Shown: in pieces, positions 10,661-33,362 of the stretch | Layout: each line of letters starts with the position of its first letter | How positions within the stretch are numbered: position 1 is the first letter of the stretch | Source: Aurantimonas coralicida | GTDB taxonomy: Bacteria; Pseudomonadota; Alphaproteobacteria; Rhizobiales; Rhizobiaceae | DNA: 42,624 bases | Assembly: GCA_011050685.1 (NCBI GenBank) | Contig: DRFF01000024.1 | Coordinates: 1-42,624, forward strand | Reading direction: 5' to 3' | The notes under the pieces: model-generated | The model's database searches: none | Seen by the model: only the letters and a program-made list of their open reading frames with translations | Told to the model about the DNA's origin: nothing | Position numbers and translations under genes: made by a program

Positions 10661-11113
10661 TCAGCGGGCGTCGTCGCGCGGCTCGGCTGCCCAGAAATCC
10701 TTGAGAAACTCCAGCGAGCGATGGGCCTCGCCGGCTTGGCAACGGGCGTAGAAATGATCGCTCCCCAGATCCGCAAAGGCCGGATACCCGGCGAGGCTTT
10801 CGGCTGTGGCGCTCTGGAAGGCCATCGACCAGTCGGCGAAGTCGCGTTCGGGTTTCTCGCCCTGTTCGATGACGATCTTGGTGTGATGACGCGGATCGGC
10901 AAAGATCGTCGTGCGCAGGGTTTCGATCGCGCCACGGTCGCCCTCGAGAAGCTGCATGAAGCTGCCGCGCCGACCGTCCCTGCCGCCGGCGAACAGCAAC
11001 ATCCCCGAAATGCCGTGAAGCGGATTGTAGCTTCGGCTCTTCGACAGGATCGCCTCAAGGTCCGCTGTGCCGAGCCCCTTCCGCGCCTGGCTGACATAGA
11101 CCAGATAATTCAC
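10661..11113 (-). CDS. BLUF-domain blue-light sensor
   Basis: A single-domain BLUF (FAD-binding blue-light receptor), about 150 aa. Expected elements are visible: the first strand LVYVSQAR, the Asn of RSYNPLHGISGML that contacts the flavin, the photoactive Gln of FMQLLEGDR, the DPRHHTK segment and the DWSMAF end (Trp/Met switch). There is no attached GGDEF/EAL output domain, so it would signal through protein contacts. No ATG starts the frame: GTG 11113 (chosen, V-NYLVYVS) or TTG 11116 fit the domain boundary, with GGGGAG 8-11 bases upstream; a TTG at 11179 would add a poorly conserved leader. It stands alone. Confidence 0.85.
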   Translation of the reverse strand: MNYLVYVSQARKGLGTADLEAILSKSRSYNPLHGISGMLLFAGGRDGRRGSFMQLLEGDRGAIETLRTTIFADPRHHTKIVIEQGEKPERDFADWSMAFQSATAESLAGYPAFADLGSDHFYARCQAGEAHRSLEFLKDFWAAEPRDDAR

Positions 11114-11226
11114 CAACGCCCCAGCTCCCCGCTGATTTCCCGCCTCTGAGCCTCCGCCATTCCGGCGGAGTGGACGCAAAGTCTGTTACCCGGGCACGAT
11201 ATAGACCACAACAAAATCCGGTCAAA

Positions 11227-11274
11227 TTTCACATTGTGAAAAGCAATTTGACGATGTGGATTTTATTTGACGAT
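11227..11274. promoter_or_regulatory. Palindrome plus direct repeats upstream of the IclR gene
   Basis: A perfect 15-bp palindrome TTTCACATTGTGAAA (11227-11241) is followed by two direct copies of ATTTGACGAT at 11246-11255 and 11265-11274, 19 bp apart. The region is AT-rich against a GC-rich background and lies 60-110 bp before the IclR-type regulator. It is a good candidate for the promoter with autoregulatory operator sites; the TTGACG within each repeat also resembles a -35 element. Confidence 0.5.
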
Positions 11275-11335: not shown

Positions 11336-12193
11336 ATGAGCGAAGCCGGACCAATGTCGTCCTCTCCCGCCAAGCCGAAGGACAAGTATGAAGAGCCCGC
11401 TGGCGCCGGCAAAAAGAAGGCGGCGGAGGGGCGGGTCATTCAATCGGTGGACCGTGCCCTGAAGCTGATCGAAGTGATCGCCGGCAAGGACCGTCCGATT
11501 CTGCTGAATGAACTCGCCAGGGCGGCCGAGTTGAATCTGTCGACCTGCCATCATCTGGTGGCGACGCTGGTGGCGCGCGGTTACGTCATTCATGCGGGGC
11601 GGAGCCGCGGCTACATGCTCAGTTCGAAATTGGCGGATCTGGCGGCGCTCGCCAGCCGCGAGTTCGATCTTTGCGAGTTCGTCCACGACGAGTTGCAGGG
11701 GCTGAATGTCAGCTTGCGCGAAAGCGTCCAACTGGCGGTGCTGCGCGATTCCATTTTGATGACCCGGCTCAAGTTCGGCTCGCTGATGCCGACCCATGTG
11801 GAGCCGGACGAGGTGAAGAAGATGCGCGCGGCGCATGCGACGGCGACGGGCAAGGCGATCCTCGCCTGGCTGCCCGAGACCGAGCTGGCGCGCGTGGTCT
11901 CCAACAGCGGTCTGACGCCGTTCACGGCGAGCACGATCACTTCGCTGTCCGCGCTCATCGAGGAATTGCGCATCGTGCGTCGTTCGGGCTTCGCCGTCGA
12001 CGATGAGGAACTGGAGCCGAACGTCATCTGTTACGGCGCGGCGTTGCGCGACGGCAGCGGCGCGGTGCTCGGCTCGATCAGCGTGTCGATCCCGAAGAGC
12101 AGGGCAACCACCGAATACCGCGCGCACATGATCCGCGCAGTGATCGAGTGCGCCGGCAAGTTATCCAACAGGCTGCGTGTCGGCCAATTTTAA
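11336..12193 (+). CDS. IclR-family transcriptional regulator
   Basis: A 285-aa dimeric regulator with an N-terminal winged helix-turn-helix (about residues 35-95: QSVDRALKLIEVIA, then LNELARAAELNLSTCHHLVATLVARGYV) and a C-terminal IclR effector domain (AHATATGKAILAWLP, then a ligand-pocket strand). A basic, low-complexity 30-residue leader precedes the HTH. ATG 11336 has GAGGG about ten bases upstream; TTG 11306 and ATG 11354 are alternatives. It is the first gene of the catabolic locus, in the same direction and 44 bp before the alcohol dehydrogenase, so it most likely responds to that pathway's substrate or intermediate. Confidence 0.92.
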   Translation: MSEAGPMSSSPAKPKDKYEEPAGAGKKKAAEGRVIQSVDRALKLIEVIAGKDRPILLNELARAAELNLSTCHHLVATLVARGYVIHAGRSRGYMLSSKLADLAALASREFDLCEFVHDELQGLNVSLRESVQLAVLRDSILMTRLKFGSLMPTHVEPDEVKKMRAAHATATGKAILAWLPETELARVVSNSGLTPFTASTITSLSALIEELRIVRRSGFAVDDEELEPNVICYGAALRDGSGAVLGSISVSIPKSRATTEYRAHMIRAVIECAGKLSNRLRVGQF

Positions 12194-12237
12194 GAGCAAC
12201 CGTTTCAGTCAGTTGCGACGTCGTGGGAGGAAAAGAC

Positions 12238-13401
12238 ATGGCTATGGAACAAGGTGTGAAGACCCATCCGGACTATCCGGTTCCGGAGACCATGAAAGCC
12301 TGGGTTCTGGGCGATCCGGGTCAACTGACCTTTGTCGACAAGGCCGTCCCTTCGCCGAAGAAAGCGGAGGTCCTGGTCCGCATCGACGCCGTCGCCATCT
12401 GCGCCACCGATCTTGAGATCATTCACCACGGCCCGCCGGCGCAGATCGAGGGCGGCGCGCCGTTCAACAAGAACTTCACGCCGGGCCACGAGTATATGGG
12501 AACCGTGGTCGCGCTCGGGCAGGGCGTCGACGAATACGCCATCGGTGAGCGCGTGACGGTCGAGATTCACGCCGGCTGCGGCCAGTGCAAGCGTTGCCGG
12601 CAGGGCATGTATACGTCCTGCCACAACTACGGCAAGAACTACGGCGACGTCGACAAGGGCCATCGAGCCAACGGTTTCACGACCGATGGCGGCTTCTGCG
12701 AATACCAGGTGAACAACATCAACACCCTGGTGCATGTCGCCGATGACATGAGCGACGAGGAAGCGACGCTCGTCGTCACCGCCGGGACCGCGATGTACGG
12801 CCTGACCGAACTCGGCGGTCTCGTGGCGGGCGACAGCGTCGTCGTCAGCGGGCCGGGCCCGATCGGCCTGCTGGGTGCCGCCGTTGCCAAGGCGCTCGGC
12901 GCGCAGCCGGTGATTTTGACCGGAACCCGCGACAACCGGCTCGAGATCGGCAAGCGCCTCGGCGCCGACCACGTCATCAATGTGCGCAATGAAGACCCGG
13001 TCGAGGCCGTTCGCCGCCTCACCGACGGCAAGGGCGTCGACTATGTGGTGGAATGCTCGGGGGCACCGAATGCGGTCAACGAGGCGGCGCAGATGCTGAA
13101 CCGCGGCGGCAAGATCTGCCTGGCGGCATTCCCGAGCGCGCCGGTGCCCGTCGACGTGGCCTATCTGGTGCGCAACAACATCTACGTTTACGGCATCCGG
13201 GGCGAGGGCAAGGGGGCGACACACCGCGCCGAGGCATTCATGCGCCAGAAGCGCTTCGACGCGACCCAGATCCACACCCACACCTTCCCGATGGAAAACC
13301 TGCCTGAGGCGCTGCGCTACGCCAAGGACCGCGTGGAAGACGCGATCAAGGTGGTGGTCCGCAACAAGCAGGCGCAAGCCCAGTCGATCGCGGCGGAATG
13401 A
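12238..13401 (+). CDS. Zinc-dependent alcohol/polyol dehydrogenase (MDR superfamily)
   Basis: A 387-aa NAD(P)-dependent medium-chain dehydrogenase related to threonine dehydrogenase and polyol dehydrogenases. Catalytic zinc ligands: Cys55 (ICATD) and the H84-E85 pair in GHEYMG. The structural zinc site is complete (Cys114, 117, 120, 128). The Rossmann glycine motif is VSGPGPIGLLGAAVAKALGA. It oxidises a secondary or primary alcohol to the carbonyl compound. The start at 12238 has an excellent GGGAGG site. It is the first enzyme of the locus, 21 bp before the flavin subunit of the Mo hydroxylase. The substrate is not deducible; a sugar alcohol or cyclitol would fit the neighbours. Confidence 0.9.
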   Translation: MAMEQGVKTHPDYPVPETMKAWVLGDPGQLTFVDKAVPSPKKAEVLVRIDAVAICATDLEIIHHGPPAQIEGGAPFNKNFTPGHEYMGTVVALGQGVDEYAIGERVTVEIHAGCGQCKRCRQGMYTSCHNYGKNYGDVDKGHRANGFTTDGGFCEYQVNNINTLVHVADDMSDEEATLVVTAGTAMYGLTELGGLVAGDSVVVSGPGPIGLLGAAVAKALGAQPVILTGTRDNRLEIGKRLGADHVINVRNEDPVEAVRRLTDGKGVDYVVECSGAPNAVNEAAQMLNRGGKICLAAFPSAPVPVDVAYLVRNNIYVYGIRGEGKGATHRAEAFMRQKRFDATQIHTHTFPMENLPEALRYAKDRVEDAIKVVVRNKQAQAQSIAAE

Positions 13402-13422
13402 TCAGGATCGAAGGTCGAGATA

Positions 13423-14340
13423 ATGTTGTCCTTTGAGGAATACGTCACGCCGCGCGATCTGCGGGAAGCGCTGGAGACAGTCGGCAAGCTTCCCGCGGAC
13501 GGCAAGGTCATCGCCGGGGCGACCGACGTCCTGCCCTATGCCCGCGAGGGCCGGGGCGGAGACGTGCATTATTCGATCGTCGTCGATCTGAGCCGGGTCC
13601 GCGAGTTCCAGGGTTACGAACATGTCGGCAACCGGGTTCGGCTCAACGCGAATGTCGCCTTTCAGGCCTTTCTGACCGACGCCGTCCTGCGCGATCATCT
13701 ACCCTGTATGCCGTATTGCGCGATCTGGTTCGCCGACGACCAGGTGCGCGAGCAGGCGACGCTGGCGGGAAATATCGCCAATGCGTCTCCAGCGGCGGAC
13801 GGTGTGCCGCCGCTGCTCGCGATGAATGCGGATGTGGAGCTTGCGTCGCTGGAAAACGGCGAAATCCGCCGACGCACCATGCCGATCGGCGACTTCATCC
13901 TTGGTCCCGGCCGCACGGCGCTGCGAGCCGGGGAACTGATCACCGCCGTGATCTGTGAATCGATGCGGGGCTATGGCGGCTCATTTCAAAAAGTGGGCCA
14001 GCGACGCTCCCTCGTCATATCCAGGGTGTCGGCCGTCGCGCTGGTCAAAACCAACGCCGCCGGCGACGTCTTCGAAGACGTTCGGCTGGCGCTCGGTGGG
14101 GTCGGCCCCGTGCCCGTCCGGCTGCACGATATCGAGACCATGCTGATCGGCCAGCCCATCACCCGCGAGCTGGTGGCCGAAGCCAGCGTGTTGCCGGCCG
14201 AGCGCGTCGCTTCGCGCTCGCGCGTCGCCTATCGCCAGCGGGTCGTGCGGGGCTTTGTGGAGGCCGCGCTGGAAGACGCGCTCGTCGCGTGCGGCGCGCC
14301 GGTTCCGAATGCACAGCAGAGGGAAGCAGCTCATGTCTGA
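13423..14340 (+). CDS. Molybdenum hydroxylase FAD subunit (CoxM/XdhB-type)
   Basis: A 305-aa FAD-binding subunit of a xanthine dehydrogenase-family enzyme, which carries electrons from the Fe-S clusters to the acceptor. FAD-binding motifs are AGATD at residues 31-35 (usual AGGTD) and LAGNIANASPAADGVPPLL, the typical GNIANASPxxD loop, near residues 117-137. The CO dehydrogenase flavoprotein C-terminal domain follows (GGSFQKVGQRRSLVISRVSA, then LALGGVGPVPVR). It overlaps the next gene by 8 nt, so the subunits are translated together. Confidence 0.9.
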   Translation: MLSFEEYVTPRDLREALETVGKLPADGKVIAGATDVLPYAREGRGGDVHYSIVVDLSRVREFQGYEHVGNRVRLNANVAFQAFLTDAVLRDHLPCMPYCAIWFADDQVREQATLAGNIANASPAADGVPPLLAMNADVELASLENGEIRRRTMPIGDFILGPGRTALRAGELITAVICESMRGYGGSFQKVGQRRSLVISRVSAVALVKTNAAGDVFEDVRLALGGVGPVPVRLHDIETMLIGQPITRELVAEASVLPAERVASRSRVAYRQRVVRGFVEAALEDALVACGAPVPNAQQREAAHV

Positions 14341-16213
14341 CCGCGTCCTGACCATGACCGTCAACGGCCGCAAATTCGCCCGGCCGCTCAATGGCAGCTA
14401 CCGCCTGCTCGATTATCTGCGTGAGGAGATCAATCTCACCGGAAGCAAGGAAGGTTGCGGCGCCGGCGAGTGCGGCACCTGTTCGGTCTTCGTCGACGGT
14501 AAGCTGGTGAAATCCTGTCTCATGCCGGCGGTGAAGGCTGACGGGGCGGACATCCAGACGATCGAGGGGCTCGCGCCGCGCGGTGAGCTGACCACCCTGC
14601 AGCAGGCCTTTCACAAGACCGGCGCCAGCCAGTGTGGCTACTGCATCCCGGGCATGGTGATGGCGGCTACCTCGGCACTGCGCGAAAACCCGTTCGCTGA
14701 CCTGGAAGAGATCAAGGAGCGCCTCGGCGGCAACATCTGCCGCTGCACGGGCTACACGAAGATATTCGAGGCCGTTGAACTGGCCCGGGACGTTATGAAT
14801 GGCCGTCTTCCCGCCACCGCGCTCGATGAGGACGGTGCTGGCGCCTCCTATATCGGCAACAATGTCCGTCGGCTCGATGCGCCGAGCAAGGTTTCCGGCG
14901 CGCTGAAATACGCCGGCGACATGACGATGCAGGACATGCTGCACATGCAGGTTCTGCGCAGCCCGTATCCCCATGCGAAAATCCTCTCGATCGACACGTC
15001 CGCCGCCGAGGCGCTGGACGGCGTGGAATGTGTGATCACGCACGAGGATGTGCCCGGTCAGGACGGGTTTGGCGTCTTCGTCCACGACCAGCCGGTGATG
15101 GCGCGCGAAAAGGTGCGCTACGTCGGCGAGGCGGTCGCCGCGGTCTCGGCCGAGACCCAGGAGATCGCGCGCCGGGCGCTCGGGCTGATCAAGGTGGCTT
15201 ACGAGGAACTGCCGGGCGTCTTCGATCCCGAGGAGGCGATGCGGCCCGGCGCGGTCGTCGTGCACGACTATGCCAGCGACAACGTCGTCAAGCACATCCC
15301 CATCCGCAAGGGCGATGTCGAGCGCGGCTTTGCCGAGGCCGATCTCATCGTCGAGAACAGCTACGCGACCCAACAAGTCGAGCACGCCTATCTCGAACCG
15401 GAGGCGGGCCTTGCCTATGTCGATCACGACGGCGTCGTGACCGTCGTCTCCCCGAGCCAGAACATCACCCATCATCGCCACATGCTGTCGACCATCATCG
15501 ATAAGCCGATCAACAAGGTCCGCTTCATCATGAGCCCGGTCGGCGGCGGCTTTGGCGGCAAGGAGGACATGATCTACCAGGGCATGCTGGCGCTCTCCGC
15601 CATGAAGAGCGGACGCCCCGTCCGGATTGTCTTTACTCGCGAGGAATCGATCATCGCGACGGCCAAGCGCCACCCCTCGAAGGTGACATACAGGATGGGC
15701 CTGAAGAGCGACGGCACGATCACGGCCGTCTCGTTTAAGATGATCAGCGACGGCGGCGCCTATGGCATGTCCACCGAAGGCGTCATGCGCAAGGCCGCCA
15801 TCCTGTCGCTCGGCCCATACGACATCGCCAACACGCGGATCGACACGTTCGGCGTCTACACCAACAACACGCCGTCCGGCGCGTTCCGGACCTTCGGCGC
15901 CATGCAGGCGCAGTTCGCCACCGAGTCACACCTCGACATCTGCGCCGAAAGGCTCGGTCTCGATCCGTTCGAGATCAGGCGCCGGAACATGATGACGGTC
16001 GGGTCCCACACGCACACGGGGCAGCGGCTCGATACCGTTTCCATCGGCGAGGTGCTGAAAACCGCCGAGGCGTTCTGCCGGTGGGAAACGGGCGCGCCGA
16101 CGAGCCGCGGCGCCACGCGGTCGGATCTCGGCGGTTCCGACACGCGCCAGCCCTGCACCCTCGGAGCTCGTTTTCGCCAGACGGCGGCGGACGATAAGCA
16201 GGAGGTGGCGTGA
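14333..16213 (+). CDS. Molybdenum hydroxylase: [2Fe-2S] domain fused to the N-terminal half of the Mo-cofactor domain
   Basis: A 626-aa fusion. Residues 1-160 are the two-cluster Fe-S unit: plant-ferredoxin-type ligands Cys42, 47, 50, 62, then the second cluster Cys101, 104, 136, 138 (QCGYC and CRCTGY). From about residue 180 it is the first half of the molybdopterin-binding domain (LKYAGDM, VRYVGEAVAAV, the GGGFGGKE loop at 404-411, and AFRTFGAMQAQ at 517-527). It ends soon after VLKTAEAF with a poorly conserved tail. The second half of the domain is on the next ORF. The start ATG 14333 matches the ferredoxin N-terminus; the frame is open further upstream but that overlaps the FAD gene. Confidence 0.88.
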   Translation: MSDRVLTMTVNGRKFARPLNGSYRLLDYLREEINLTGSKEGCGAGECGTCSVFVDGKLVKSCLMPAVKADGADIQTIEGLAPRGELTTLQQAFHKTGASQCGYCIPGMVMAATSALRENPFADLEEIKERLGGNICRCTGYTKIFEAVELARDVMNGRLPATALDEDGAGASYIGNNVRRLDAPSKVSGALKYAGDMTMQDMLHMQVLRSPYPHAKILSIDTSAAEALDGVECVITHEDVPGQDGFGVFVHDQPVMAREKVRYVGEAVAAVSAETQEIARRALGLIKVAYEELPGVFDPEEAMRPGAVVVHDYASDNVVKHIPIRKGDVERGFAEADLIVENSYATQQVEHAYLEPEAGLAYVDHDGVVTVVSPSQNITHHRHMLSTIIDKPINKVRFIMSPVGGGFGGKEDMIYQGMLALSAMKSGRPVRIVFTREESIIATAKRHPSKVTYRMGLKSDGTITAVSFKMISDGGAYGMSTEGVMRKAAILSLGPYDIANTRIDTFGVYTNNTPSGAFRTFGAMQAQFATESHLDICAERLGLDPFEIRRRNMMTVGSHTHTGQRLDTVSIGEVLKTAEAFCRWETGAPTSRGATRSDLGGSDTRQPCTLGARFRQTAADDKQEVA

Positions 16214-17223
16214 TGAAGCGCTGGGCGAGGGGCCGCGGCATGGCCGCGTCCTGGTACGGCATTGCCCGCACCGCAACGATCGATCGGGCGGGCGCCTGGG
16301 TGGAAATGGATGATGGCGGCACTGCGAAGGTGGTCACCGGCGTCACCGAGATCGGCGAGGGCATCTTGACGGTGCTCGCGCAGGTCGCCGCCGAAGAACT
16401 CGGCATCCGGCCCGACGACGTGACGATCGGCGATAACGACACGGCGCGCTCGCCCGAGGCGGCGCATGCCGGCGCGACGCGCCAGACCTACATGATCGGC
16501 AACTGCGTCGCGATTGCATGCCGCGACGCCCGCGCCAAGCTCGACGCCGAACTGGCCGATCACTGGCAGGTCGACGCCGCGACGATCAAGGCGTTCGACG
16601 GCGAAATCTGGGCCGAGGGCTCCAACAACCGGATGACCGTCGACGAGGCGGTTGCTCTTTGCAAGAAGCGGGGGGTCGTCCCGGTCGGCTCCGGCTCGTT
16701 CACGGCGCACGGCACCGGTCTCGATCCGGTCGACGGTTCCGGCGCTCCCTGGCAAGCCTATGTCTTCGGCTGTCAGGTCGCGGAGGTGGAAGTCGACACC
16801 TTGACGGGCGAGGTTCAGGTGCTGGGCATGTGGGCCGTTCACGACGTCGGCCGAGCGATCAATCCTCGCGGTGTGGAGGGTCAGATCGAAGGCGGCATCG
16901 TGCAAGGGTTGGGCCAGGCGCTGATGGAAGACTATCAGCTCGATAAGGGTCACACGACTACCCACGGCTTCTCCAAATATATCCTGCCGACGTCGCTCGA
17001 CATTCCGCAGATCAACACGATGCTCGTGGAAGACCGCGACCCGCGCAGCCCGCTCGGCGCCAAGGGCATCGGCGAACCGGCGCTGGTGCCGACGGCGCCG
17101 GCGATCATGAACGCCATTTACGACGCGATCGGCGTGCGCATTACCGCGCTGCCGGCAACACCGGAATCCATCTTGCAGGGTTTGGAAGAGAAAAAATCCG
17201 CCAAACTGGAGATGGCCAACTGA
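16210..17223 (+). CDS. Molybdenum hydroxylase: C-terminal half of the Mo-cofactor subunit
   Basis: A 337-aa protein corresponding to the second half of a CoxL/XdhB-type large subunit: RGRGMAASWYG, VTGVTEIGEGILTVLAQ (usual GxxExGQG), a Mo-cofactor segment, HDVGRAINPRGVEGQIEGG, and the catalytic glutamate Glu289 in KGIGEPALVP. It has its own ribosome site (AGGAGG at 16199-16204) and begins with GTG 16210 or ATG 16213, overlapping the preceding stop, so this is a true separate chain. A split large subunit is known from nicotinate dehydrogenase of Eubacterium barkeri (NdhL/NdhM), but there the Fe-S unit is also separate. Confidence 0.88.
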   Translation: MMKRWARGRGMAASWYGIARTATIDRAGAWVEMDDGGTAKVVTGVTEIGEGILTVLAQVAAEELGIRPDDVTIGDNDTARSPEAAHAGATRQTYMIGNCVAIACRDARAKLDAELADHWQVDAATIKAFDGEIWAEGSNNRMTVDEAVALCKKRGVVPVGSGSFTAHGTGLDPVDGSGAPWQAYVFGCQVAEVEVDTLTGEVQVLGMWAVHDVGRAINPRGVEGQIEGGIVQGLGQALMEDYQLDKGHTTTHGFSKYILPTSLDIPQINTMLVEDRDPRSPLGAKGIGEPALVPTAPAIMNAIYDAIGVRITALPATPESILQGLEEKKSAKLEMAN

Positions 17224-17347
17224 CGGCCCCGCCAGTGCTCTCGGGCCGGCCGGACGGGATTCGTCCGGTTTGCCGAGTGTGCGTCCGGAGACGTTGAATT
17301 TCATCGCGGCGGGAGGTCGCCGAGCGCATTACTGGGAGGAGAACAAC

Positions 17348-18313
17348 ATGCATTCGTTCAAATTGAGCGGCGGTCTTATCGCCGCTGCACTGGCTGCCGT
17401 CACCCTGACCGGAAGTCTTCCTGCCCGGGCCGAATATCCGGAAAAGCCGGTCGAAATGACCGTCCTGTTCGGCGGCACCGCCAACACCACGGCGCAGCTG
17501 CTGGCGGAGTTGATGTCCCAGGAGCTCGGCTCCCCGGTCGTGCCCGTCGCCCGCACCGGCGGGGGTGGCGCGATCGGCTATGCCCACGTCCAGTCGACGC
17601 GTCCTGACGGCTACAATATCGTGTGGAACTCCAACTCCATCAACACGACGTATCACCTCGGAAATTTGCCGTTCAACTATGAGGAATTCGCACCGATCGC
17701 CCAGGTGTCGGTCGAAATTCCGGTCCTCGCGGTGAATGTCTCGACGGGCTGGAAAAGCCTCGACGAGATGGCCAAGGCCGTCAAGGAAGGCGGCAAGAAG
17801 ATCAATGTCGGCATCTCCGGCAAGGGCTCGTTCACGCATCTGACGTCGGCCGCCCTGTTCGACGCCATGGGCATCGCCGATCAGGTCAACTACGTCTCTT
17901 ACGGGGACGGCAAGGCGCCCGTGGAGTTGCTGGCCGGCCGCATCGATGCCGCCATCCAATGGCCCGGCCAGTTCCTTTCCTATGTCCAGTCCGGCGACCT
18001 GACTGTCCTCGGTTCGACCGGGGCAGAGCCGGTCAGCGTTCTACCCGATGTGAAGACGGCGAAGAGCCAGGGCTACGACATCGACATCTCGATGTGGCGC
18101 GGCTTGGCGGCGCCCAAGGGAACGCCGGACGACGTGCTCGCAAAGCTGGAGACGGCGGCCAAGGCAGCGGCGGAGTCGAACGAATTCATCGCGGCCTCCA
18201 AGAACATCGGCTTCGAGCCGGCTTTTAAGGGACGTGCGGAATTCGGCGATATCATCGCCCGCGATGACAAGTTCTACGCCGAGCTCCTCGGCGAACTGGG
18301 TATGACGAAATAA
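17348..18313 (+). CDS. Tripartite tricarboxylate transporter substrate-binding protein (TctC)
   Basis: Periplasmic binding protein of the TTT family (Bug/TctC), 321 aa. The signal peptide is clear: a hydrophobic core (GLIAAALAAVTLTG) ending ARA before EYPEKPVEMTV. The two glycine-rich substrate loops follow the family pattern (ARTGGGGAIGYAHV and the ISGKGSFTHLTSAALFDAMG region). TTT binding proteins capture carboxylates such as citrate, tartrate, terephthalate or sugar acids. GGGAGG precedes ATG 17348. The gene is followed in order by TctB and TctA genes, a complete transporter. Confidence 0.92.
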   Translation: MHSFKLSGGLIAAALAAVTLTGSLPARAEYPEKPVEMTVLFGGTANTTAQLLAELMSQELGSPVVPVARTGGGGAIGYAHVQSTRPDGYNIVWNSNSINTTYHLGNLPFNYEEFAPIAQVSVEIPVLAVNVSTGWKSLDEMAKAVKEGGKKINVGISGKGSFTHLTSAALFDAMGIADQVNYVSYGDGKAPVELLAGRIDAAIQWPGQFLSYVQSGDLTVLGSTGAEPVSVLPDVKTAKSQGYDIDISMWRGLAAPKGTPDDVLAKLETAAKAAAESNEFIAASKNIGFEPAFKGRAEFGDIIARDDKFYAELLGELGMTK

Positions 18314-18343
18314 ACCGGCAGATTCCGTTTCGAGGAGGGGCAG

Positions 18344-18859
18344 ATGTCGGAAAAAAAGCGTGATGTCGTAACCGGCATGCTGCTTCTGACCCTGTCTTTG
18401 GTCTGGATGCTGATTGTCTGGCGCACGATACCGCCGGGCACGGGAGGCGGGGACGTCGGTCCCCGCGCTTTCCCGCTCCTCCTGGGCGCGTTGCTGGCGG
18501 TCTTCTCGCTGTGGCTGACCATTGCGGCGCTGGGCAAGCGGCGTGACGACGCCGTGACGCCAGGGGCCGAGGGGGCGATCAATGAGCCTGAGGCGGCAGG
18601 CGTCAACGGAGCCGCCGGTCTCGTCGCGGCGATCCTGACCGTCGCGCATCTTCTTGCCTACGGATTTTTGATGCAGCGCATCGGCTTCGTTCTTGCCACG
18701 CTCGTCACTGTCGCGTCGATCATGCTGATTTGCACGAACGACCGGTCGCCGCTGCGCATCGGAGCCATGAGCGTCGGCATCACCTTCGCCTGCTGGCTGA
18801 TCTTCGGAAAGATCCTCGGCGTCTATCTGGCGACCGGTTCGTGGATCAATTTGGGTTGA
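18344..18859 (+). CDS. TTT small membrane subunit (TctB)
   Basis: A 171-aa protein with four predicted transmembrane helices (about residues 9-26, 41-64, 90-112, 119-137, with further hydrophobic sequence to about 160). Size, topology and position between TctC and TctA identify the small TctB subunit, which is required for transport but poorly conserved. An AGGAGG-like site (cgaggagggg) precedes the ATG. Confidence 0.85.
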   Translation: MSEKKRDVVTGMLLLTLSLVWMLIVWRTIPPGTGGGDVGPRAFPLLLGALLAVFSLWLTIAALGKRRDDAVTPGAEGAINEPEAAGVNGAAGLVAAILTVAHLLAYGFLMQRIGFVLATLVTVASIMLICTNDRSPLRIGAMSVGITFACWLIFGKILGVYLATGSWINLG

Positions 18860-18868
18860 TGGCCTGAC

Positions 18869-20383
18869 ATGGACAGCTTTCTGACAGCGGCGACAATTGC
18901 GCTTCAGCCCGAAAGCCTCGGCGCGGTGGCGCTCGGTTCGCTCATCGGTCTGATTTTCGGATCCATCCCCGGACTGACCTTCACGGTCGCATTGGCGCTG
19001 GCGCTCCCGCTGACCTTCGGCATGGAGTCGGTGCCGGCCATCGGCCTGCTTCTCGGCACCTATATCGGCGGCATGACAGGCGGGTCGGTTTCGGCGATTC
19101 TGCTCGGCATTCCCGGCACGCCGTCCGCCGCGGCGACCGTCATCGACGGTTATCCGATGGCCAAGACGGGGCGCGCATCGATCGCGCTCGGCATGGCCGT
19201 GATCGTTTCCACCTTCGGCGGCATCTTCAGCCTCATCGTGATGGTCGTGTCGGTGAATCTGGTCTCGCGCATGGCCATGTCCTTTGGCCCGGCCGAAATC
19301 TTCGCTCTGGTCGTGTTCGGACTGTCGACGATTTGCGGTATGGCCGGCAAGTCGATGTTACGCGGGCTGATCGCCGGGCTGCTCGGACTGATGGCCATGA
19401 CCATCGGGCTCGACGTCCTGGATGGTGTGCCGCGCATGACCTTCGGCACGACGAGCATGCTGCAGGGCGTCAACCTACTCGTCGCCATGATCGGTCTGTT
19501 CGCCGTCCCCTTCATCATCCAGGTCTTCGAGGAACACCGCAGGGGCGTCGCGCCTCCCGCTCAGATGAGCGATATCCGCGCCGAGCTGCCGTCCTTGCGG
19601 CTGATCGCCAGCAATTTCTGGCTGATGGTCCGCTGTTCGACCATCGGGACCGTCATCGGCGCCATCCCCGGTACCGGCGGCCCGATCGCCTCGTTCCTCG
19701 CCTACGATCACGCCAAACGCTTTTCCAAGGATCCGTCCCGCTTCGGCAAGGGAGCGATCGAGGGTGTCGTCGCGCCGGAAACCGCGAACAACGCCGTCAC
19801 CGGGGGAACCATGATCCCGCTCCTGTCGCTCGGCATCCCCGGCGATCCGGCAACGGCGATCGTGCTGGCCGGCATGCAGATCCATGGCATCGTGCCGGGA
19901 CCGGCGCTGTTTCTCAATCACCAGACGGAAGTCTACGGAATCTACGTTTCGATCGTCGTCGCCTATGTCGCGATCCTGTTCATGCAACTGCTCGGAATCC
20001 GGCTGTTCGTCCATGTGTTGCGTGTGCCGCCCCGATTGATGGCGGTTCTCATCATCGTCCTGTGCGGCATCGGAGCCTTCACCGTGCGCAATAGCATCTT
20101 CGACATCTACACGATGGCGATCGTCGGGTTGCTCGCCTACGCGGTGATCAAGGCCGAAATTCCCGTCACCCCGATCATCCTTGGGCTGGTGCTCGGGCCG
20201 ACGCTGGAAGGCGAATTCCGCACGGCCATGAACCTCTCCGGCGGTGATCTCGCCATCTTCTACACATCTCCAACCGCCCTGTTCTTCTTCGGTCTCGCTG
20301 CGTTCATCATCGCGCTGCAGGTATCGGGAGAATTTTTCGCGAAGAGGCGAGGGAAAATGAACGTCGGAGCCAGCAATGCTTGA
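18869..20383 (+). CDS. TTT large membrane subunit (TctA)
   Basis: A 504-aa polytopic permease with about 12 transmembrane helices. Diagnostic TctA features are the paired glycine/proline motifs GLIFGSIPGLTFTVALALALP in the N-terminal half and GTVIGAIPGTGGPIASFLAY in the second half, plus APETANNAVTGG and ALLSLGIPGDPATA-type loops. It forms the substrate-conducting unit driven by the membrane ion gradient. It ends 8 nt inside the following ThDP-enzyme gene. Confidence 0.94.
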   Translation: MDSFLTAATIALQPESLGAVALGSLIGLIFGSIPGLTFTVALALALPLTFGMESVPAIGLLLGTYIGGMTGGSVSAILLGIPGTPSAAATVIDGYPMAKTGRASIALGMAVIVSTFGGIFSLIVMVVSVNLVSRMAMSFGPAEIFALVVFGLSTICGMAGKSMLRGLIAGLLGLMAMTIGLDVLDGVPRMTFGTTSMLQGVNLLVAMIGLFAVPFIIQVFEEHRRGVAPPAQMSDIRAELPSLRLIASNFWLMVRCSTIGTVIGAIPGTGGPIASFLAYDHAKRFSKDPSRFGKGAIEGVVAPETANNAVTGGTMIPLLSLGIPGDPATAIVLAGMQIHGIVPGPALFLNHQTEVYGIYVSIVVAYVAILFMQLLGIRLFVHVLRVPPRLMAVLIIVLCGIGAFTVRNSIFDIYTMAIVGLLAYAVIKAEIPVTPIILGLVLGPTLEGEFRTAMNLSGGDLAIFYTSPTALFFFGLAAFIIALQVSGEFFAKRRGKMNVGASNA

Positions 20384-22274
20384 GAGTAATTTTGGATCCG
20401 GGACCCAGGAAAGCGAAATTCGGGAAAGGGCGGAGTTTGTCGCCCGCTACGACGACGTCGATGCGGCCCTTGCCGCGGGCGGTATCGAGATGCCGATCGA
20501 GACCAGCTTGTCCGAGGCGCTGGTCATCGGGCTGCTGAAGCAGGGTGTGACGCACTACTTCGCGATTTTCGGGCACGGGTCGACCGATCTGGGAAATGTC
20601 CTGAGAATTTACAGTGAGGCCGGCGTCGTCACGGTGATCAATTGCCGCAACGAGGTCGAGATGGCGCATGCGGCCACCGCGCATGCCTGGCAGTACGGCA
20701 AGACGCCGGCCGTCGTCACCTCGATCGGGCCGGGCGGCCTTCAGGCCATGGCCGGCTCGCTGGCCGCCGCGTCCAACGGCGTCGGCGTCTACCACATCTA
20801 TGGTGACGAAACGACGCGCGGCGAAGGCTACAACATGCAGCAGGTGCCGAAACCCGAACAGGGGATCTTCGGCAAGATCACGGCGCTGATGGGCCAGTCC
20901 CACACCTTGCATACGCCGGAATCCCTGCGGGAGTGCATGCGCCGCGGGACCAACTGCGTGCATCACCCCTACATGCCGGGGCCGTTCTTCATCTTGCTGC
21001 CCATCAACACACAGCCGCAATCGATGAAGGTGAATGTCGATACGCTTCCCGGCCGCATGGAGCTTCCGGCCGTGGCGCCGGCCGGTCTGGAAGTCTACGA
21101 GGCGGCGGCGGCGCTGCTTGCCCGTCACCGCAAGATCGTGATCAAGGCGGGTGGCGGATCCCGACGGCATGCTTCCGCGGTTCGCGACCTGGCCGAGGCG
21201 ATCGGCGCCGCGGTTGTGCTTTCGCCGGGTTCGACCGGCGTGTTGCCCGACGGCCATCCGCAGAACATGCATGTCGGCGGATCGAAGGGCACGATCAGCG
21301 GCAATTTTGCCATGGAAGAGGCCGATCTCGTCGTCTTCATAGGCTCGCGCGGTGTCTGCCAGGCCGATTGCTCCGGCGTCGGTTATCCCAATGCCAGGGC
21401 CGTCATCAACATCAACGGCGCGATCGGCGACGTCACCCATTACGCCAACACCTTGCCTCTGCCGGGCGATATCACTTGCGTCGCTGCGCGACTGCTCGAT
21501 GTCCTGCGCGAAAAGAGGGCCCTGAAAGACGATCGCGGCGAATGGCTGCGCCTTTGCGCCGACAAAAAGGCTGCCTGGAGCGCGTTCAAGCGCGAACGGA
21601 CAGGTGCCGCGCCACTCGATGACGCGGTCTGGAAGCAGGCCGTGCTGACGCAGCCGGCGGCGATTCATACCGTCGCAGAATTCGCCAAGCGGATCGGAGC
21701 CGCCAAGTTCTTCGATGCCGGCGATGTCCAGGCCAACGGCTTTCAGATCGTCGAAGACGACATCGTCGGCGATACGTTCACCGAAACCGGCGCGTCCTAC
21801 ATGGGCTTTGCCGCCTCGGCGTTGCTGGGGTCCGCCGGCGTGGAGGGGGCACGTTACGGCATAGCCTTCACCGGCGACGGCTCGCTCATGATGAACCCGC
21901 AGATCCTGATCGATGCGGTCGAGCACGGCGTGAAGGGCATGATCGCGCTGTTCGACAATCGCCGGATGGGGGCCATCACCAGCCTGCAATACGCCCAGTA
22001 TGGAGTGGAATTCCGCACCAACGACAGTGTCGCGGTGGACTATGTCGCGATGGCCGGCGCCTTTGCTGGCGTAAAGGCCCTGTTCGGCGGCACGACGCGG
22101 GATACTCTGCGCGCGGCGCTTGACGAAGCCCATGCGCATGACGGCCTGTCGCTGGTGCATATCCCCGTGTACGCCGGTCGTGACCCGATCGCGGAAATGG
22201 GAGCCTATGGCTCCTGGAATGTCGGCAACTGGGTCGATGACGTCCAGGCCCGCTATCTCGAACAGAAAATCTGA
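20376..22274 (+). CDS. IolD-like thiamine diphosphate-dependent enzyme
   Basis: A 632-aa ThDP enzyme. The pyrimidine domain has GHGSTDLGNVLRIYS and NCRNEVEMAHAATAHA, where Glu93 would be the ThDP-activating glutamate. A central domain follows (IKAGGGSRRHASAV, VVFIGSRGVCQADCSG). The diphosphate domain carries GDGS at 500-503 with Asp501 and Asn528 for Mg2+. The closest family I recognise is IolD, the hydrolase that opens a cyclohexane-dione in inositol catabolism (GHGN, ARNE, TSIGPG motifs), but no other inositol gene is present. It may cleave another cyclic or open-chain diketone or 2-keto acid. It starts 8 nt before the TctA stop. Confidence 0.8.
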   Translation: MLESNFGSGTQESEIRERAEFVARYDDVDAALAAGGIEMPIETSLSEALVIGLLKQGVTHYFAIFGHGSTDLGNVLRIYSEAGVVTVINCRNEVEMAHAATAHAWQYGKTPAVVTSIGPGGLQAMAGSLAAASNGVGVYHIYGDETTRGEGYNMQQVPKPEQGIFGKITALMGQSHTLHTPESLRECMRRGTNCVHHPYMPGPFFILLPINTQPQSMKVNVDTLPGRMELPAVAPAGLEVYEAAAALLARHRKIVIKAGGGSRRHASAVRDLAEAIGAAVVLSPGSTGVLPDGHPQNMHVGGSKGTISGNFAMEEADLVVFIGSRGVCQADCSGVGYPNARAVININGAIGDVTHYANTLPLPGDITCVAARLLDVLREKRALKDDRGEWLRLCADKKAAWSAFKRERTGAAPLDDAVWKQAVLTQPAAIHTVAEFAKRIGAAKFFDAGDVQANGFQIVEDDIVGDTFTETGASYMGFAASALLGSAGVEGARYGIAFTGDGSLMMNPQILIDAVEHGVKGMIALFDNRRMGAITSLQYAQYGVEFRTNDSVAVDYVAMAGAFAGVKALFGGTTRDTLRAALDEAHAHDGLSLVHIPVYAGRDPIAEMGAYGSWNVGNWVDDVQARYLEQKI

Positions 22275-23738
22275 ATGGAATCGGCCATGTATCGTGATCT
22301 GGAACTCTACATCGACGGCACTTGGCGTGGTGCGTCGAACGGCGCGACGCGGGCGGTCACCGATCCGGCCACGGAGGACACGCTCGGCTCCATCGCCGAG
22401 GCGACCGAAGCTGATATCGACGCCGCGTTGACAGCGGCTCGGGCCGGCTTTTCCGTCTGGCGCCGGGTCGGAACCTGGGAGCGCGCCAAGCTGATCCGCA
22501 AGGCCAGCGACCTCATTCGCGAACGCGCCGATGAGATCGCGACACTGATGTCGGTGGAAACCGGCAAGCCGCTGGCTGAAGCCAAGGGCGAGGTAAACGC
22601 CGCGGCCGATCAGTTCGAGTGGTATTCCGAAGAGACCAAGCGCATCTACGGGCAGATCATCGAGAGCCGCACAGCCGATAGCCGGATGGCGGTGATTCAT
22701 CAGCCCGTCGGAGTCGTGGCGGCGTTCTCCGCATGGAATTTTCCGGCCCTTTTGCCCGCCCGCAAGATCGCGGCCGCGCTCGCGGCGGGCTGCAGCATCA
22801 TCATCAAGCCGGCCGGCGAGGCACCCGCTTCTTGCGCGGCCTTGGTGCGAGCTTGCCACGACGCCGGCGTCCCGAGCGGGGTGGTCAATTTCCTGACCGG
22901 TCAATCCGACATGATCGCACGGCGCCTGATCGCCTCGCCGATCGTGCGCAAGGTGTCGCTCACCGGTTCGGTTCCGGTCGGCAAGCAGATCCTGCACCTG
23001 GCCGCCGACGGCGTGAAGAAGGTATCGATGGAACTGGGCGGCCACGCCCCGGTCGTCGTCTTCGACGACGTCGACGCCGAAAAGGCCGCGGAGGTCTGCG
23101 CCAATACCAAGTTCCGCAATTGCGGCCAGGTCTGCATCTCGCCGACGCGTTTCTACGTCCACGAGTCGAAATACGAGGCCTTTGCCCGCCGTTTCGCTGA
23201 AGTCGCAAAATCCCTGAAGGTCGGACGCGGCATGGAGGAGGGGGTCCAGATGGGCCCGCTCGCCAATCGGCGCGGACTGGAGACGATCCAGGAGCTCGTC
23301 GCCGATGCCAGGCAGCGGGGCGCCGAGGTGTTGGCCGGTGGCAACGTTCCGGCCGAGGCCAATCGCGGCTTCTTCTTCGAGCCGACCGTCCTTGGCCACG
23401 TTCCCGACGATGCCCGCATCATGCGCGAGGAACCGTTCGGGCCGGTCGCGCCACTGACTACCTTCACGAGCTATGACGAGGTGATGGAACGGGCCAATGC
23501 GCTGCCTTTCGGCCTCGCCGGCTACGTCTTCTCCAACGATCTGCGAACCGCGACGCGGGCCTATGAAGATCTCGAGGTCGGCATGGTCGGCGTCAACGAG
23601 ATGCTGCTCGCGACCGCGGAAGCGCCGTTCGGAGGCGTCAAGGAAAGCGGCATGGGGCGCGAGGGCGGCTCCTTCGGCATCGGTGATTATCTCGAGACGA
23701 AATACGTCAAGATCAAGCTGGAAGAGCGGGCGCGCTGA
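22275..23738 (+). CDS. NAD(P)-dependent aldehyde dehydrogenase
   Basis: A 487-aa ALDH related to succinate-semialdehyde and 2-oxoglutarate-semialdehyde dehydrogenases. Catalytic Glu253 (MELGGHAP) and nucleophile Cys287 (NCGQVC) are present; Cys283 sits four residues earlier. The NAD-binding SLTGSVPVGKQI and the C-terminal GGVKESGMGREGG are typical. It oxidises a (semi)aldehyde to the acid, probably the last step of the locus. It starts directly after the preceding stop; ATG 22287 is an alternative start (MYRDLELYIDG matches family N-termini). Confidence 0.9.
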   Translation: MESAMYRDLELYIDGTWRGASNGATRAVTDPATEDTLGSIAEATEADIDAALTAARAGFSVWRRVGTWERAKLIRKASDLIRERADEIATLMSVETGKPLAEAKGEVNAAADQFEWYSEETKRIYGQIIESRTADSRMAVIHQPVGVVAAFSAWNFPALLPARKIAAALAAGCSIIIKPAGEAPASCAALVRACHDAGVPSGVVNFLTGQSDMIARRLIASPIVRKVSLTGSVPVGKQILHLAADGVKKVSMELGGHAPVVVFDDVDAEKAAEVCANTKFRNCGQVCISPTRFYVHESKYEAFARRFAEVAKSLKVGRGMEEGVQMGPLANRRGLETIQELVADARQRGAEVLAGGNVPAEANRGFFFEPTVLGHVPDDARIMREEPFGPVAPLTTFTSYDEVMERANALPFGLAGYVFSNDLRTATRAYEDLEVGMVGVNEMLLATAEAPFGGVKESGMGREGGSFGIGDYLETKYVKIKLEERAR

Positions 23739-23740
23739 AC

Positions 23741-25453
23741 ATGAGTGAAGACGAGGCAAGAGGGTTCGCGCGCGGCCTGACCAACTACGGCGACAAGGAT
23801 TTCTCGCTCTATCTGAGAAACTCCTTCGCCAGTTCGATGGGATATTCCCGCGAGGTCCTGAAGAAGCCGATCGTCGGGATCGCGAACAGTTTTTCCGGTT
23901 TCAACAACTGTCACCGGCATTTTCCGGAGATGCTGGAGGCGGTGAAGCGCGGTGTCTTGCTCGGCGGCGCGCTGCCGATTGAGTTTCCGACAATTTCGCT
24001 CGGCGAGGTTTTTCTCAATCCGACAAGCCTCAAGTTCCGCAACCTGATGTCGATGGATACCGAAGAGATGATCCGGGCCCAGCCGATGGATGCCGTCGTC
24101 TTGATGGGCGGCTGCGACAAGACCGTGCCGGCGCAGTTGATGGGGGCGGCATCGGCGGACCTACCGGCGATCCAGATCGTTGCCGGTCCGATGATGACAT
24201 CGCGCTACGGCGAAGAGCGGCTTGGCGCCTGCACCGATTGCCGCCGGTTCTGGGGAAAATACCGCGCCGGGGAGATCTCCAGCGAAGCGATCGGCGACAT
24301 CGAGGGCCGGCTGGCGACCACCGCCGGCACCTGCGCCGTCATGGGCACGGCATCGACCATGGCCTGCATCGCCGAGACGCTTGGCATGTCGCTGCCCGGA
24401 ACGGCGGCCATCCCGGCGGTCCATGCCGATCGGCTGCGGGCCGCCGAGGCGACGGGTCTCGCGGCCGCGCGCATGATCGACAAGCCCATTCGTCCCAGCG
24501 AGGTGATCACCGAGAAATCGGTCGAGAACGCCTTGCGTATCCTGCTCGCTCTCGGCGGATCCACCAACGCCATCATTCACCTGACGGCGATTGCGGGACG
24601 TCTCGGCATTCCGGTTTCGCTGCGGCGGCTCAATCAGTTGTCCGACGAGACGCCGGTGCTGGTCAATCTCAAGCCGGTCGGCGCCAACTACATGGAAGAC
24701 TTCTTCTTTGCCGGCGGTGTCGGCGCGGTGCTGCGCGAGCTCAAACCGCTGTTGAACCTCGATTGCAGGACGGTGACCGGCGACACGCTCGGCGACCGGC
24801 TTCGCGAGGATGTCGGTCCCGTCGACCGCAAGGTCATCGCCAGCGCCGAGCAGCCGCTGGAACCCGAAGGCGGTCTCGTCGCGCTGTTCGGCAATCTCGC
24901 GCCGGGCGGCGCGATCCTGAAGCGTTCGGCGGCGGACAAGGCGTTGTTCGAAAAGGAAGGGCGCGCGGTGGTGTTCGATTCACTCGCCGATCTGGCGAAG
25001 CGCATCGACGATCCGGACCTCGATGTGGAGGAGGGCGACATTCTGGTCCTGCAGAATGCCGGACCGCGCAGCGATTCCGGCATGCCCGAGGCCGGCTATC
25101 TGCCGATCCCCAAGAAGCTCTCGGCCAAGGGCATCAAGGACATGATCCGCATTTCCGATGCGCGCATGTCGGGCACGGCCTTCGGCACCATCGTGCTCCA
25201 CGTCACGCCGGAAGCGGCGATCGGCGGACCGCTGGCGCTGGTTCGAACCGGCGACCGTATCAAGCTGTCGGTCAAGGACAAGACGATCGAGCTGCTGGTC
25301 GACGACGACGAGCTGGAACGGCGGCGTGGAACCTTCCGATCACCGTCGAAGCCGGCGTCCGAGCGGCGCGGCTACGATCGGATCTATGCCGAAGAGGTCC
25401 TTCAGGCGGATGAGGGGTGCGATTTCGCGATCATGCAGCCGATCAAGACATGA
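23741..25453 (+). CDS. IlvD/Edd-family sugar-acid dehydratase
   Basis: A 570-aa Fe-S dehydratase. The likely [2Fe-2S] ligands are in NSFSGFNNCHRHF, GGCDKTVPAQLMGA and GTCAVMGTASTMA. The serine-rich catalytic end of the family appears as SDARMSGTAFGTIVLHVTPEAA. It resembles L-arabonate/D-xylonate dehydratases more than valine-pathway IlvD by the GGCDKT and MEDFFFAGGVGAVLREL blocks. The reaction would be removal of water from a 2,3-dihydroxy acid to give a 2-keto-3-deoxy acid. It is the last gene of the locus, starting 2 bp after the aldehyde dehydrogenase stop. Exact sugar acid unknown. Confidence 0.9.
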   Translation: MSEDEARGFARGLTNYGDKDFSLYLRNSFASSMGYSREVLKKPIVGIANSFSGFNNCHRHFPEMLEAVKRGVLLGGALPIEFPTISLGEVFLNPTSLKFRNLMSMDTEEMIRAQPMDAVVLMGGCDKTVPAQLMGAASADLPAIQIVAGPMMTSRYGEERLGACTDCRRFWGKYRAGEISSEAIGDIEGRLATTAGTCAVMGTASTMACIAETLGMSLPGTAAIPAVHADRLRAAEATGLAAARMIDKPIRPSEVITEKSVENALRILLALGGSTNAIIHLTAIAGRLGIPVSLRRLNQLSDETPVLVNLKPVGANYMEDFFFAGGVGAVLRELKPLLNLDCRTVTGDTLGDRLREDVGPVDRKVIASAEQPLEPEGGLVALFGNLAPGGAILKRSAADKALFEKEGRAVVFDSLADLAKRIDDPDLDVEEGDILVLQNAGPRSDSGMPEAGYLPIPKKLSAKGIKDMIRISDARMSGTAFGTIVLHVTPEAAIGGPLALVRTGDRIKLSVKDKTIELLVDDDELERRRGTFRSPSKPASERRGYDRIYAEEVLQADEGCDFAIMQPIKT

Positions 25454-30291: not shown

Positions 30292-30400
30292 ATGCGCGCG
30301 ATCTGTTTTCTATGATGAAAATAAATTTCCTAACAGTTGATTTCCGCTGGCGTTGGTGTTTATCTCCGCCTGGAACGTTTGCGAGAGAGGTGCGAAGCCG

Positions 30401-31297: not shown

Positions 31298-31298
31298 G

Positions 31299-31976: not shown

Positions 31977-31986
31977 GGAGACGGAG

Positions 31987-33327: not shown

Positions 33328-33362
33328 ACGAGAAAATGATGATGGGGAGGGGACGGTAGAAT

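Follow-up and report, generated by a model that had tools for sequence, protein, structure and literature searches.

We analyzed a 42,624-nucleotide stretch of Aurantimonas coralicida DNA (contig DRFF01000024.1 of assembly GCA_011050685.1, referred to below as the window), in which eleven genes, all on the forward strand at positions 11336 to 25453, seem to form an undescribed catabolic operon of the sugar acid type with an uncharacterized clade of thiamine diphosphate (ThDP)-dependent enzymes. Judging from their conservation, these genes are a real, repeatedly inherited catabolic unit and more than chance neighbors. An initial annotation, made from the letters alone, had suspected an undescribed pathway here, and no description of this operon was found in searches of open-licence PubMed Central papers. 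All the families named in that annotation were recovered above the Pfam cutoffs at the place and on the strand where it had put them, and both ends of the locus, the ATG at 11336 and position 25453, were correct. Families of window genes were called with Pfam cutoffs, and NCBIfam curated models with their own cutoffs were used for finer assignment.

The operon begins with an IclR-family regulator (11336 to 12193, ATG at 11336; IclR_C, 108 bits; HTH_IclR, 45 bits) and a Zn-dependent medium-chain alcohol dehydrogenase (ADH) that resembles TDH and IolM (12238 to 13401, start after GGAGGA; ADH_N and ADH_zinc_N, the latter with 105 bits). Three chains of a Mo hydroxylase follow, namely, the FAD subunit (13423 to 14340; FAD_binding_5, 124 bits; CO_deh_flav_C, 54 bits), a chain with the [2Fe-2S] domains and the first Mo half (14333 to 16213, with 14333 as the likely start; Fer2, Fer2_2, Ald_Xan_dh_C, and MoCoBD_1, 274 bits) and the second Mo half (16213 to 17223; MoCoBD_2, 245 bits). 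The periplasmic binding protein TctC (17348 to 18313, with the likely start at 17348 after GGGAGGAG; 137.5 bits), the small membrane subunit TctB (18344 to 18859; 77.2 bits) and the large membrane subunit TctA (18869 to 20383; 454.7 bits) all exceed their Pfam cutoffs and make up a complete tripartite tricarboxylate transporter (TTT). The last three genes encode the ThDP-dependent protein, a predicted C-C lyase or hydrolase of an uncharacterized family (20376 to 22274; TPP_enzyme N, M, and C domains), an SSADH/KGSADH-type aldehyde dehydrogenase (22275 to 23738, with a start at 22275 or 22287; Aldedh, 538 bits) and an IlvD/Edd dehydratase of the PRK06131 subfamily (23741 to 25453; ILVD_EDD_N, 347 bits; C domain, 197 bits). 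Gaps between the genes are short and several genes overlap, as had been pointed out initially: the end of TctA at 20383 overlaps the ATG of the ThDP gene at 20376, and the SSADH-type gene could start at the base right after the ThDP stop. Family scans found no homologs of iolB, C, E, or G among the operon genes, also in agreement with that first description.

To evaluate the conservation of this gene set, genome contigs were scanned with the ThDP alignment, which yielded 227 stretches; 204 of them encode a relative, and the best 80 of these 204 plus the window make up our sample of 81 loci (1,548,179 bases). Since 124 more distant ThDP relatives fall outside it, the sample leans to the window's own operon type, and records of the window's own genome (G000) were possibly excluded from the scan of relatives. 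Gene counts (tblastn, with bit thresholds set by hand) refer to 57 "roomy" loci, window included, with at least 8.9 kb before and at least 3.6 kb after the ThDP match, the other 24 of the 81 having been dropped because their flanks were too short; maps of neighboring genes in other loci were drawn with a greedy open reading frame (ORF) picker that loses some real genes to antisense ORFs. The ThDP gene is present in 57 of 57 by construction, as the loci were found through it. Its most faithful companion in the sample is the Mo hydroxylase trio (each of the three chains in 57), followed by ADH (54), with IclR in 51, TctC in 48, TctA and the SSADH-type gene in 44 each, IlvD in 43, and TctB in 28. 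The initial annotation had proposed a neighborhood search for its seven families together. All seven enzyme genes appeared in 41 of the 57 loci. In 37 of these 41, IclR, TctC, and TctA accompany the enzymes on a single strand, with the gene order of the window; TctB was detected in 27 of the 37 and not in the other 10. The conserved order, together with the shared regulatory site described below, supports a single co-regulated operon and is consistent with the original proposal of one catabolic locus under its own IclR regulator.

The closest named relatives by ThDP gene came from four Aurantimonas species (81 to 96% identical). The gene set and its order recur across many alphaproteobacterial genera and reach metagenome-assembled genomes (MAGs) titled Burkholderiaceae, Comamonadaceae, and Ramlibacter. 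Occurrence of the ThDP family is sporadic. A Sinorhizobium-type query at an E value of 1e-120 found it in 7 of the 385 genomes sampled from the class and in 18 of the 394 sampled from the window's family, and the window protein at 1e-100 found it in 4 of 398 sampled genomes of the phylum, with G000 included in each case. The whole operon is kept in G434 (locus L120), a single-contig genome of only 1.24 Mb in which the operon region has 33% G+C, suggesting that the substrate is worth the upkeep of the genes. The preservation of the order across many genera, MAGs, and this small genome indicates that the substrate is probably common in nature. Transhydrogenase genes were also seen (pntA in 12 of the 81 loci, pntB in 10), with pntA and pntB directly after IlvD in L021, L029, L030, L033, L039, L042, L051, L054, L065, L085, and others, hinting at an issue of NADPH/NADH balance in the pathway. 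Another group of loci (L067, L072, L074, L077-L080, L082, L087, L096, L104, and L105) shows no SSADH-type or IlvD gene nearby; all of these have the Mo trio and the ThDP gene, and all except L105 have ADH. Several of them adjoin amidohydrolase, SDR, 3HCDH, or "cyclase" genes on the opposite strand, and they perhaps follow a different downstream route.

Upstream of the IclR gene, in the region that it shares with a divergent gene, we found the palindrome TTTCACATTGTGAAA (11227 to 11241; motif TTTCA-N5-TGAAA). Exact copies of the motif numbered 21 in the 1,548,179 bases of the 81 loci, and 20 of these 21 fell inside the 16.9 kb of windows upstream from IclR. The exact palindrome was present in 20 of the 61 loci with IclR, and one within a single mismatch was present in 40 of 61, a count that stands without a one-mismatch background. 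Among 13 further loci, the exact form preceded IclR in two: L118, on the contig that also contains L076, and Salipiger L022, where a different enzyme set surrounds the same ThDP gene. The other 11 of these 13 loci, Phaeobacter L021 and G434 (L120) included, had no exact copy. The palindrome marks the IclR promoter and is a candidate operator, to which we infer that IclR binds.

The divergent gene (10661 to 11179 on the reverse strand, start codon unsettled; PF04940, 83 bits) encodes a short protein with a BLUF (blue-light, FAD) domain. A BLUF homolog was found near the operon in 24 of the 81 loci, located divergently upstream in 18 (148 to 573 bases between matches) and downstream on the same strand in 6 (105 to 5424 bases after the IlvD match). 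In the G000 assembly, no BLUF match other than the window gene was found. Of 60 relative genomes, 23 had any BLUF match and 7 carried the operon's ThDP gene. In six of these seven carriers, a BLUF match lies ca. 9 kb from the ThDP gene, and five of these six genomes have no other BLUF match; in the remaining carrier, G003, the contig with the ThDP gene starts just before that gene and the single BLUF match is on another contig. In the 53 genomes without the operon's ThDP gene, 16 had a BLUF match. The existence of two BLUF arrangements argues for a functional link over leftover synteny. The link offers a case of light-associated carbon catabolism that can be tested directly.

The three-chain composition of the Mo hydroxylase was confirmed, with a FAD chain, a chain in which the [2Fe-2S] domains and the first Mo half are joined, and a separate second Mo half preceded by an AGGAGG ribosome site (start at 16213). 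Both halves were matched on the forward strand in 71 of the 81 loci, being split in 67 and fused in 4, and we rejected a frameshift artefact because the split recurs. The best solved relatives of the two halves both belong to the nicotinate dehydrogenase of Eubacterium barkeri, with its large Mo subunit 3hrd_A for the first half (324 bits) and 3hrd_B for the second (246 bits, the next best reaching 154).

The ThDP protein had been described at first as IolD-like. The kinship held, whereas membership did not, as the protein scored 150.2 bits against the IolD model TIGR04377, with a cutoff of 715. IolD is nevertheless its best curated match, with acetolactate synthase models at 118 bits or less and a decarboxylase model at 92. 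A genuine IolD is encoded on another contig of the same genome (G000:C67:66114-67952, 792 bits against the cutoff of 715), so that the window gene is not this strain's IolD, and the same was seen in 4 of 4 carriers of the same genus that were tested; in G434, no protein exceeded the IolD cutoff. In a midpoint-rooted tree of 23 rows, the 17 sampled family members formed one clade (100/100) that grouped with three IolDs (99/98), apart from an acetolactate synthase, a Gcl-like protein, and a haloarchaeal enzyme. The family shares with IolD a GHG loop (mostly IFGHG, against IPGG in the acetolactate synthase and IPGAG in the Gcl-like protein), a C-terminal WNVG-type motif seen by eye, and, in the window protein, Glu at the catalytic position (Glu93); FGHGS and Glu93 were found in 28 of 28 rows of an alignment restricted to the window's operon type. 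A glyoxylate carboligase was considered and rejected, as the window protein has the catalytic-position Glu, where E. coli Gcl presumably has Val, and lies apart in the tree from the Gcl-like protein, itself under the Gcl cutoff. An AlphaFold model (pLDDT, 84.6) agrees only with the overall fold, and a fold search gave acetolactate synthase, Gcl, 2-hydroxyacyl-CoA lyase, and CDH similar scores, meaning that the fold does not tell the reaction.

The remaining enzymes could be assigned to different degrees. ADH scored 221 bits with the TDH model and 207 with IolM (NF041097, cutoff of 450), both under cutoff, and proteins 63% identical to it are found on Thermus plasmids. The SSADH-type enzyme fell below TIGR01780 (536 bits, cutoff of 646); its closest solved relatives are the aldehyde dehydrogenase 9zh8 and the KGSADH 5x5t (466 bits each), and by eye it keeps both arginines aligned between GabD and KGSADH, which we take to be carboxylate binders, a feature that is not unique to aldehyde-acid enzymes. 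IlvD is a member of the dehydratase subfamily PRK06131 (806 bits over a cutoff of 539) and falls short of the L-arabinonate dehydratase PRK13016 (665 bits, cutoff of 882). TctC has Bug27 and a terephthalate-binding protein among its relatives. The first view that the locus is not a classical inositol, Entner-Doudoroff, or arabonate pathway was supported.

Other genomic contexts of the ThDP gene were also informative. In nine loci (Labrenzia, two Sinorhizobium plasmids, L143, L144, L147, L148, L149, and L151), it comes after a gene for an IolG-like Gfo/Idh dehydrogenase, with ABC importer genes nearby; seven of them have the SSADH-type gene and IlvD, and L143 and L149 have IlvD only, with the reservation that the ORF picker may lose genes. 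The six numbered loci are stretches from the window's family, and L151 and L024 apparently represent one plasmid region. For the Gfo/Idh enzyme in L080, IolG is the best curated match (127 bits, under cutoff). L122 has Rbs-type ABC genes, a Gfo/Idh enzyme, and a TIM-barrel protein (by eye) before the ThDP gene, with the SSADH-type gene and IlvD present, and in L116/L117 only Gfo/Idh and ThDP genes were seen from the trunk. In Salipiger, the ThDP, SSADH-type, and IlvD genes come with TRAP genes, a protein annotated as heme binding, a TIM-barrel protein (only 40 bits to its best model, hydroxypyruvate isomerase), and a dehydrogenase resembling TSR (145 bits) and L-threonate dehydrogenase (137 bits), both under cutoff. 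In L076, IlvD is followed after 16 bases by the gene of a protein that looks RraA-like by eye (best NCBIfam model PRK08245, only 39 bits). These varied contexts indicate that the general unit is a dehydrogenase and the ThDP enzyme, usually followed by SSADH and IlvD and fed by different importers, the window-type feeder of this trunk being TctCBA, ADH, and the Mo hydroxylase.

A further TIM-barrel protein, labeled c12, was present in 18 of the 81 loci and has a 55% identical relative on a Thermus plasmid. There, in L158 (3394 to 12440), also in L161 and partially in L157, genes for ADH, the TIM barrel (27 bits to IolO, under cutoff), a creatininase family protein, UPF0261, a class II aldolase (109 bits to OtnC, cutoff of 250), and TctCBA stand together, with TctC and TctA 33% and 42% identical to those of the window. 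The substrate of this plasmid set may be identical or similar to that of the window operon. In Enterococcus, a 35% identical relative of c12 has a Gcl-like ThDP enzyme on one side and a 2-hydroxyacid dehydrogenase and glycerate kinase on the other, with allantoinase adjoining, which suggests a hydroxypyruvate-isomerase-like role for c12. A search for c12 in 249 genomes (E value of 1e-50) gave no match and, with no positive control, was uninformative. By analogy, the Thermus and Enterococcus parallels point to polyhydroxy acids as the class of substrate. The initial suggestion of a cyclitol- or sugar-acid-derived substrate remains the best class, with the IolG-like Gfo/Idh enzymes, sugar ABC importers, and isomerase-type TIM barrels of other contexts in its favor. 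An archaeal set on a Haloarcula plasmid (L156, 1856 to 9680) contains IclR, a ThDP protein with an IPGHGS loop, an alcohol dehydrogenase, a glucose 1-dehydrogenase, a methylmalonate-semialdehyde dehydrogenase, and an aldolase, and is possibly an archaeal relative of inositol-type catabolism.

From these families we infer the reactions, their order, and the substrate class, in a scheme that we consider evenly balanced between right and wrong. The step types named in the initial annotation (import, oxidations, ThDP-dependent C-C cleavage, aldehyde oxidation, and dehydration) do follow from the families, while the specific substrate and reactions are proposals. The operon would be substrate inducible, with IclR exerting control via the TTTCA-N5-TGAAA palindrome, and TctCBA would import a polyhydroxylated acid to be broken down without phosphorylation. 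The Zn-dependent ADH would form a ketol or vicinal dione by oxidizing a secondary hydroxyl of the substrate to the ketone, and the ThDP enzyme would cleave the adjacent C-C bond by IolD-type chemistry to release at least one aldehyde acid. The SSADH/KGSADH-type enzyme would convert this aldehyde acid to a diacid or aldonate, whose 2,3-diol would be dehydrated by IlvD to a 2-oxo acid for central metabolism. The Mo hydroxylase would act on another aldehyde or lactol carbon, oxidizing it either in the substrate itself or in the other fragment released by the cleavage.

This scheme can be written out in two concrete versions that we rate highest, and equally. One is a cyclitol-like "oxidative inositol" route, from a ring dione to a uronate, an aldarate, and a 2-keto-3-deoxyaldarate; it is suggested by the kinship of ADH to IolM, of the ThDP enzyme to IolD, and of Gfo/Idh to IolG (all under cutoff) and by the RraA-like protein after IlvD in L076, and we regard it as possible, though doubtful. 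In the other, a 5-ketohexonate would be split into tartrate semialdehyde and glycolaldehyde, tartrate would lead to oxaloacetate, and the Mo enzyme would make glycolate, a version that we regard as just as doubtful. It is based on precedent. One paper (PMC12016104) gives transketolase, itself a ThDP enzyme, together with SSADH as the suggested means of converting 5-ketogluconate to tartrate in E. coli, calls mechanistic validation lacking, and reports an engineered transketolase that makes tartrate semialdehyde; as a parallel in grape, another (PMC7970118) places a sorbitol-dehydrogenase-like L-idonate dehydrogenase before that cleavage step. The gene content of G434 fits either version, with one DHDPS-family and one HpaI-family aldolase match and two FAD-oxidase_C matches, one of them inside a glcDEF-like set (gene names by eye); no KDPG-aldolase family match was found in G434, compared with 8 of 14 control genomes. 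More speculatively, and in our opinion unlikely, the operon might be a light-linked pathway for an abundant, unrecognized polyhydroxy acid from plants or algae, in which the new ThDP family would cut its ketol or dione, the split Mo hydroxylase would oxidize a second aldehyde, and the BLUF protein, sharing the IclR promoter region, would tune the operon to blue light.

Several observations weigh against these proposals. The carboxylate-type importer TctCBA speaks against the cyclitol-like version, and ADH is nearer to threonine 3-dehydrogenase (221 bits) than to idonate 5-dehydrogenase (106.5), contrary to expectation for the 5-ketohexonate version; with an HpaI-family aldolase in G434, the latter is also not favored there over the former. 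An acid substrate is also out of keeping with those Gfo/Idh loci that have sugar importers. In 12 of the 57 roomy loci, mostly Rhizobiales, both the SSADH-type gene and IlvD fell below thresholds near the ThDP gene (the only place counted), so that these two steps may not be obligatory. As regards the chemistry of cleavage, the inner branch of the ThDP clade is very long (7.27), as are three end branches. The residue before the GHG loop is not Phe in 2 of the 17 family rows (ILGHG), and the haloarchaeal protein outside the IolD group also has a GHG loop, and therefore the loop is no proof of IolD-type chemistry. The active-site His76 of CDH (presumed position) aligns with Ile117 of the window protein, and a CDH-type enzyme is not supported, although CDH Glu52 does align with Glu93. 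Finally, the Phaeobacter locus L021 has the whole operon but no palindrome, even within one mismatch.

The same enzymes could also be arranged as a tetronate or 2-ketoaldonate decarboxylase route, in which ADH would form a 2-oxo aldonate, the ThDP enzyme would decarboxylate it to an aldose with one carbon less, which SSADH or the Mo enzyme would oxidize to an aldonate, and IlvD would give a 2-oxo-3-deoxy acid (for C4, glyceraldehyde, glycerate, and pyruvate). Every enzyme would be usable and no partner missing, and the TSR/threonate likeness of the Salipiger dehydrogenase, the OtnC score of the Thermus aldolase beside the 63% identical ADH, and the glycerate kinase neighborhood of the Enterococcus c12 relative all agree with it. 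However, the SSADH-type enzyme keeps the arginines typical of aldehyde-acid enzymes, decarboxylase-type models score lower than IolD for the ThDP protein (with no 2-oxoacid decarboxylase in the tree), and the Mo hydroxylase would be left redundant with SSADH; we consider this route improbable. In a heteroaromatic-acid pathway, TctC would bind a nicotinate-like acid, the Mo hydroxylase would hydroxylate the ring, and later steps would open it. The solved relatives of both Mo halves and the TctC kinship to Bug27 and the terephthalate-binding protein speak for such a pathway, as does a 39% identical relative of the second Mo half in Pseudosulfitobacter, near a gene annotated as 6-hydroxynicotinate reductase. 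Still, the operon encodes neither an amidase nor a ring reductase and has no gene for nitrogen handling, no nicotinate-pathway family was found among the window ORFs scanned, and the trunk is common to loci with sugar-type dehydrogenases and importers, making this explanation very unlikely.

That the locus is a divergent myo-inositol (iol) operon might be thought from the closest curated models, which include IolD, IolM, IolG, and IolO for the ThDP, ADH, Gfo/Idh, and TIM-barrel proteins. All of these scores are far below the cutoffs, and G000 and the same-genus carriers have their genuine IolD elsewhere, with iolB, C, and E not in the operon; a classical inositol locus was rejected on the missed IolD cutoff and the genuine IolD, and a divergent one is hard to believe. 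A chance gathering of unrelated genes has practically no probability in view of the recurrent order in 37 of the 57 roomy loci, the conserved palindrome, and the whole set retained in the 1.24-Mb, low-G+C genome of G434.

Elsewhere in the window, a PfkB-family ORF of 205 amino acids (7324 to 7941, reverse strand; best NCBIfam model ribokinase, 125 bits with a cutoff of 300) lies outside the operon, and a BtpA/SgcQ-family gene (186 bits) is followed by a TENA/THI-4-family gene (74 bits) at 8109 to 9472. Downstream (30353 to 40454), glutamine-amidotransferase, GXGXG, and glutamate-synthase-like genes, a type III glutamine synthetase (648 bits), and SoxB/SoxA-like oxidase subunits form a set that presumably corresponds to a locus of the gamma-glutamylmethylamide/N-methylglutamate type. 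No RNA element of Rfam was matched in the window. Promoter patterns (3 versus 2.5 expected, chance level) and terminator patterns (14 versus 9.4 ± 2.7 in shuffles) in the window were not used.

Two features of the operon extend what is known from other systems, namely, its ThDP clade next to IolD and a Mo hydroxylase whose split is conserved. The window protein has the ThDP fold and domains, the GHG loop, and the catalytic-position Glu of IolD, but identity is only 25 to 28%, and the IolD partners iolB, C, and E are not in the operon. Likeness to the Thermotoga IolM-IolN-IolO inositol route is limited to a weak kinship of ADH to IolM and of the Thermus TIM barrel to IolO, all under cutoff, and that route uses a creatininase-type hydrolase where the window has a ThDP enzyme. 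Nicotinate dehydrogenase (3hrd) likewise has a two-chain Mo subunit with one chain per Mo-binding domain, although in the window the Fer2 domains are fused to the first Mo half instead of forming a separate small [2Fe-2S] subunit. The Thermus operon (GntR-ADH-CBS-TIM barrel // creatininase-UPF0261-class II aldolase-TctCBA) resembles that of the window in its ADH, its c12 relative, and its TTT importer, but the stretch shown contains no ThDP, Mo hydroxylase, SSADH, or IlvD gene, and the class II aldolase may carry out the C-C cleavage there. An ascorbate route of the literature was also considered and rejected, as its gene set is different. As outlined in excerpts of the literature, the 5-ketogluconate-to-tartrate route employs another ThDP family, and IlvD and the Mo enzyme are no part of it; nevertheless, it unites a secondary-alcohol dehydrogenase, ThDP-dependent C-C cleavage, and SSADH-type oxidation in the same sequence as proposed here. 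If the 5-ketohexonate version were true, the window's ThDP protein would be a dedicated enzyme for the C4-C5 cleavage that passages of the tartrate literature list as open (PMC12016104, PMC7970118).

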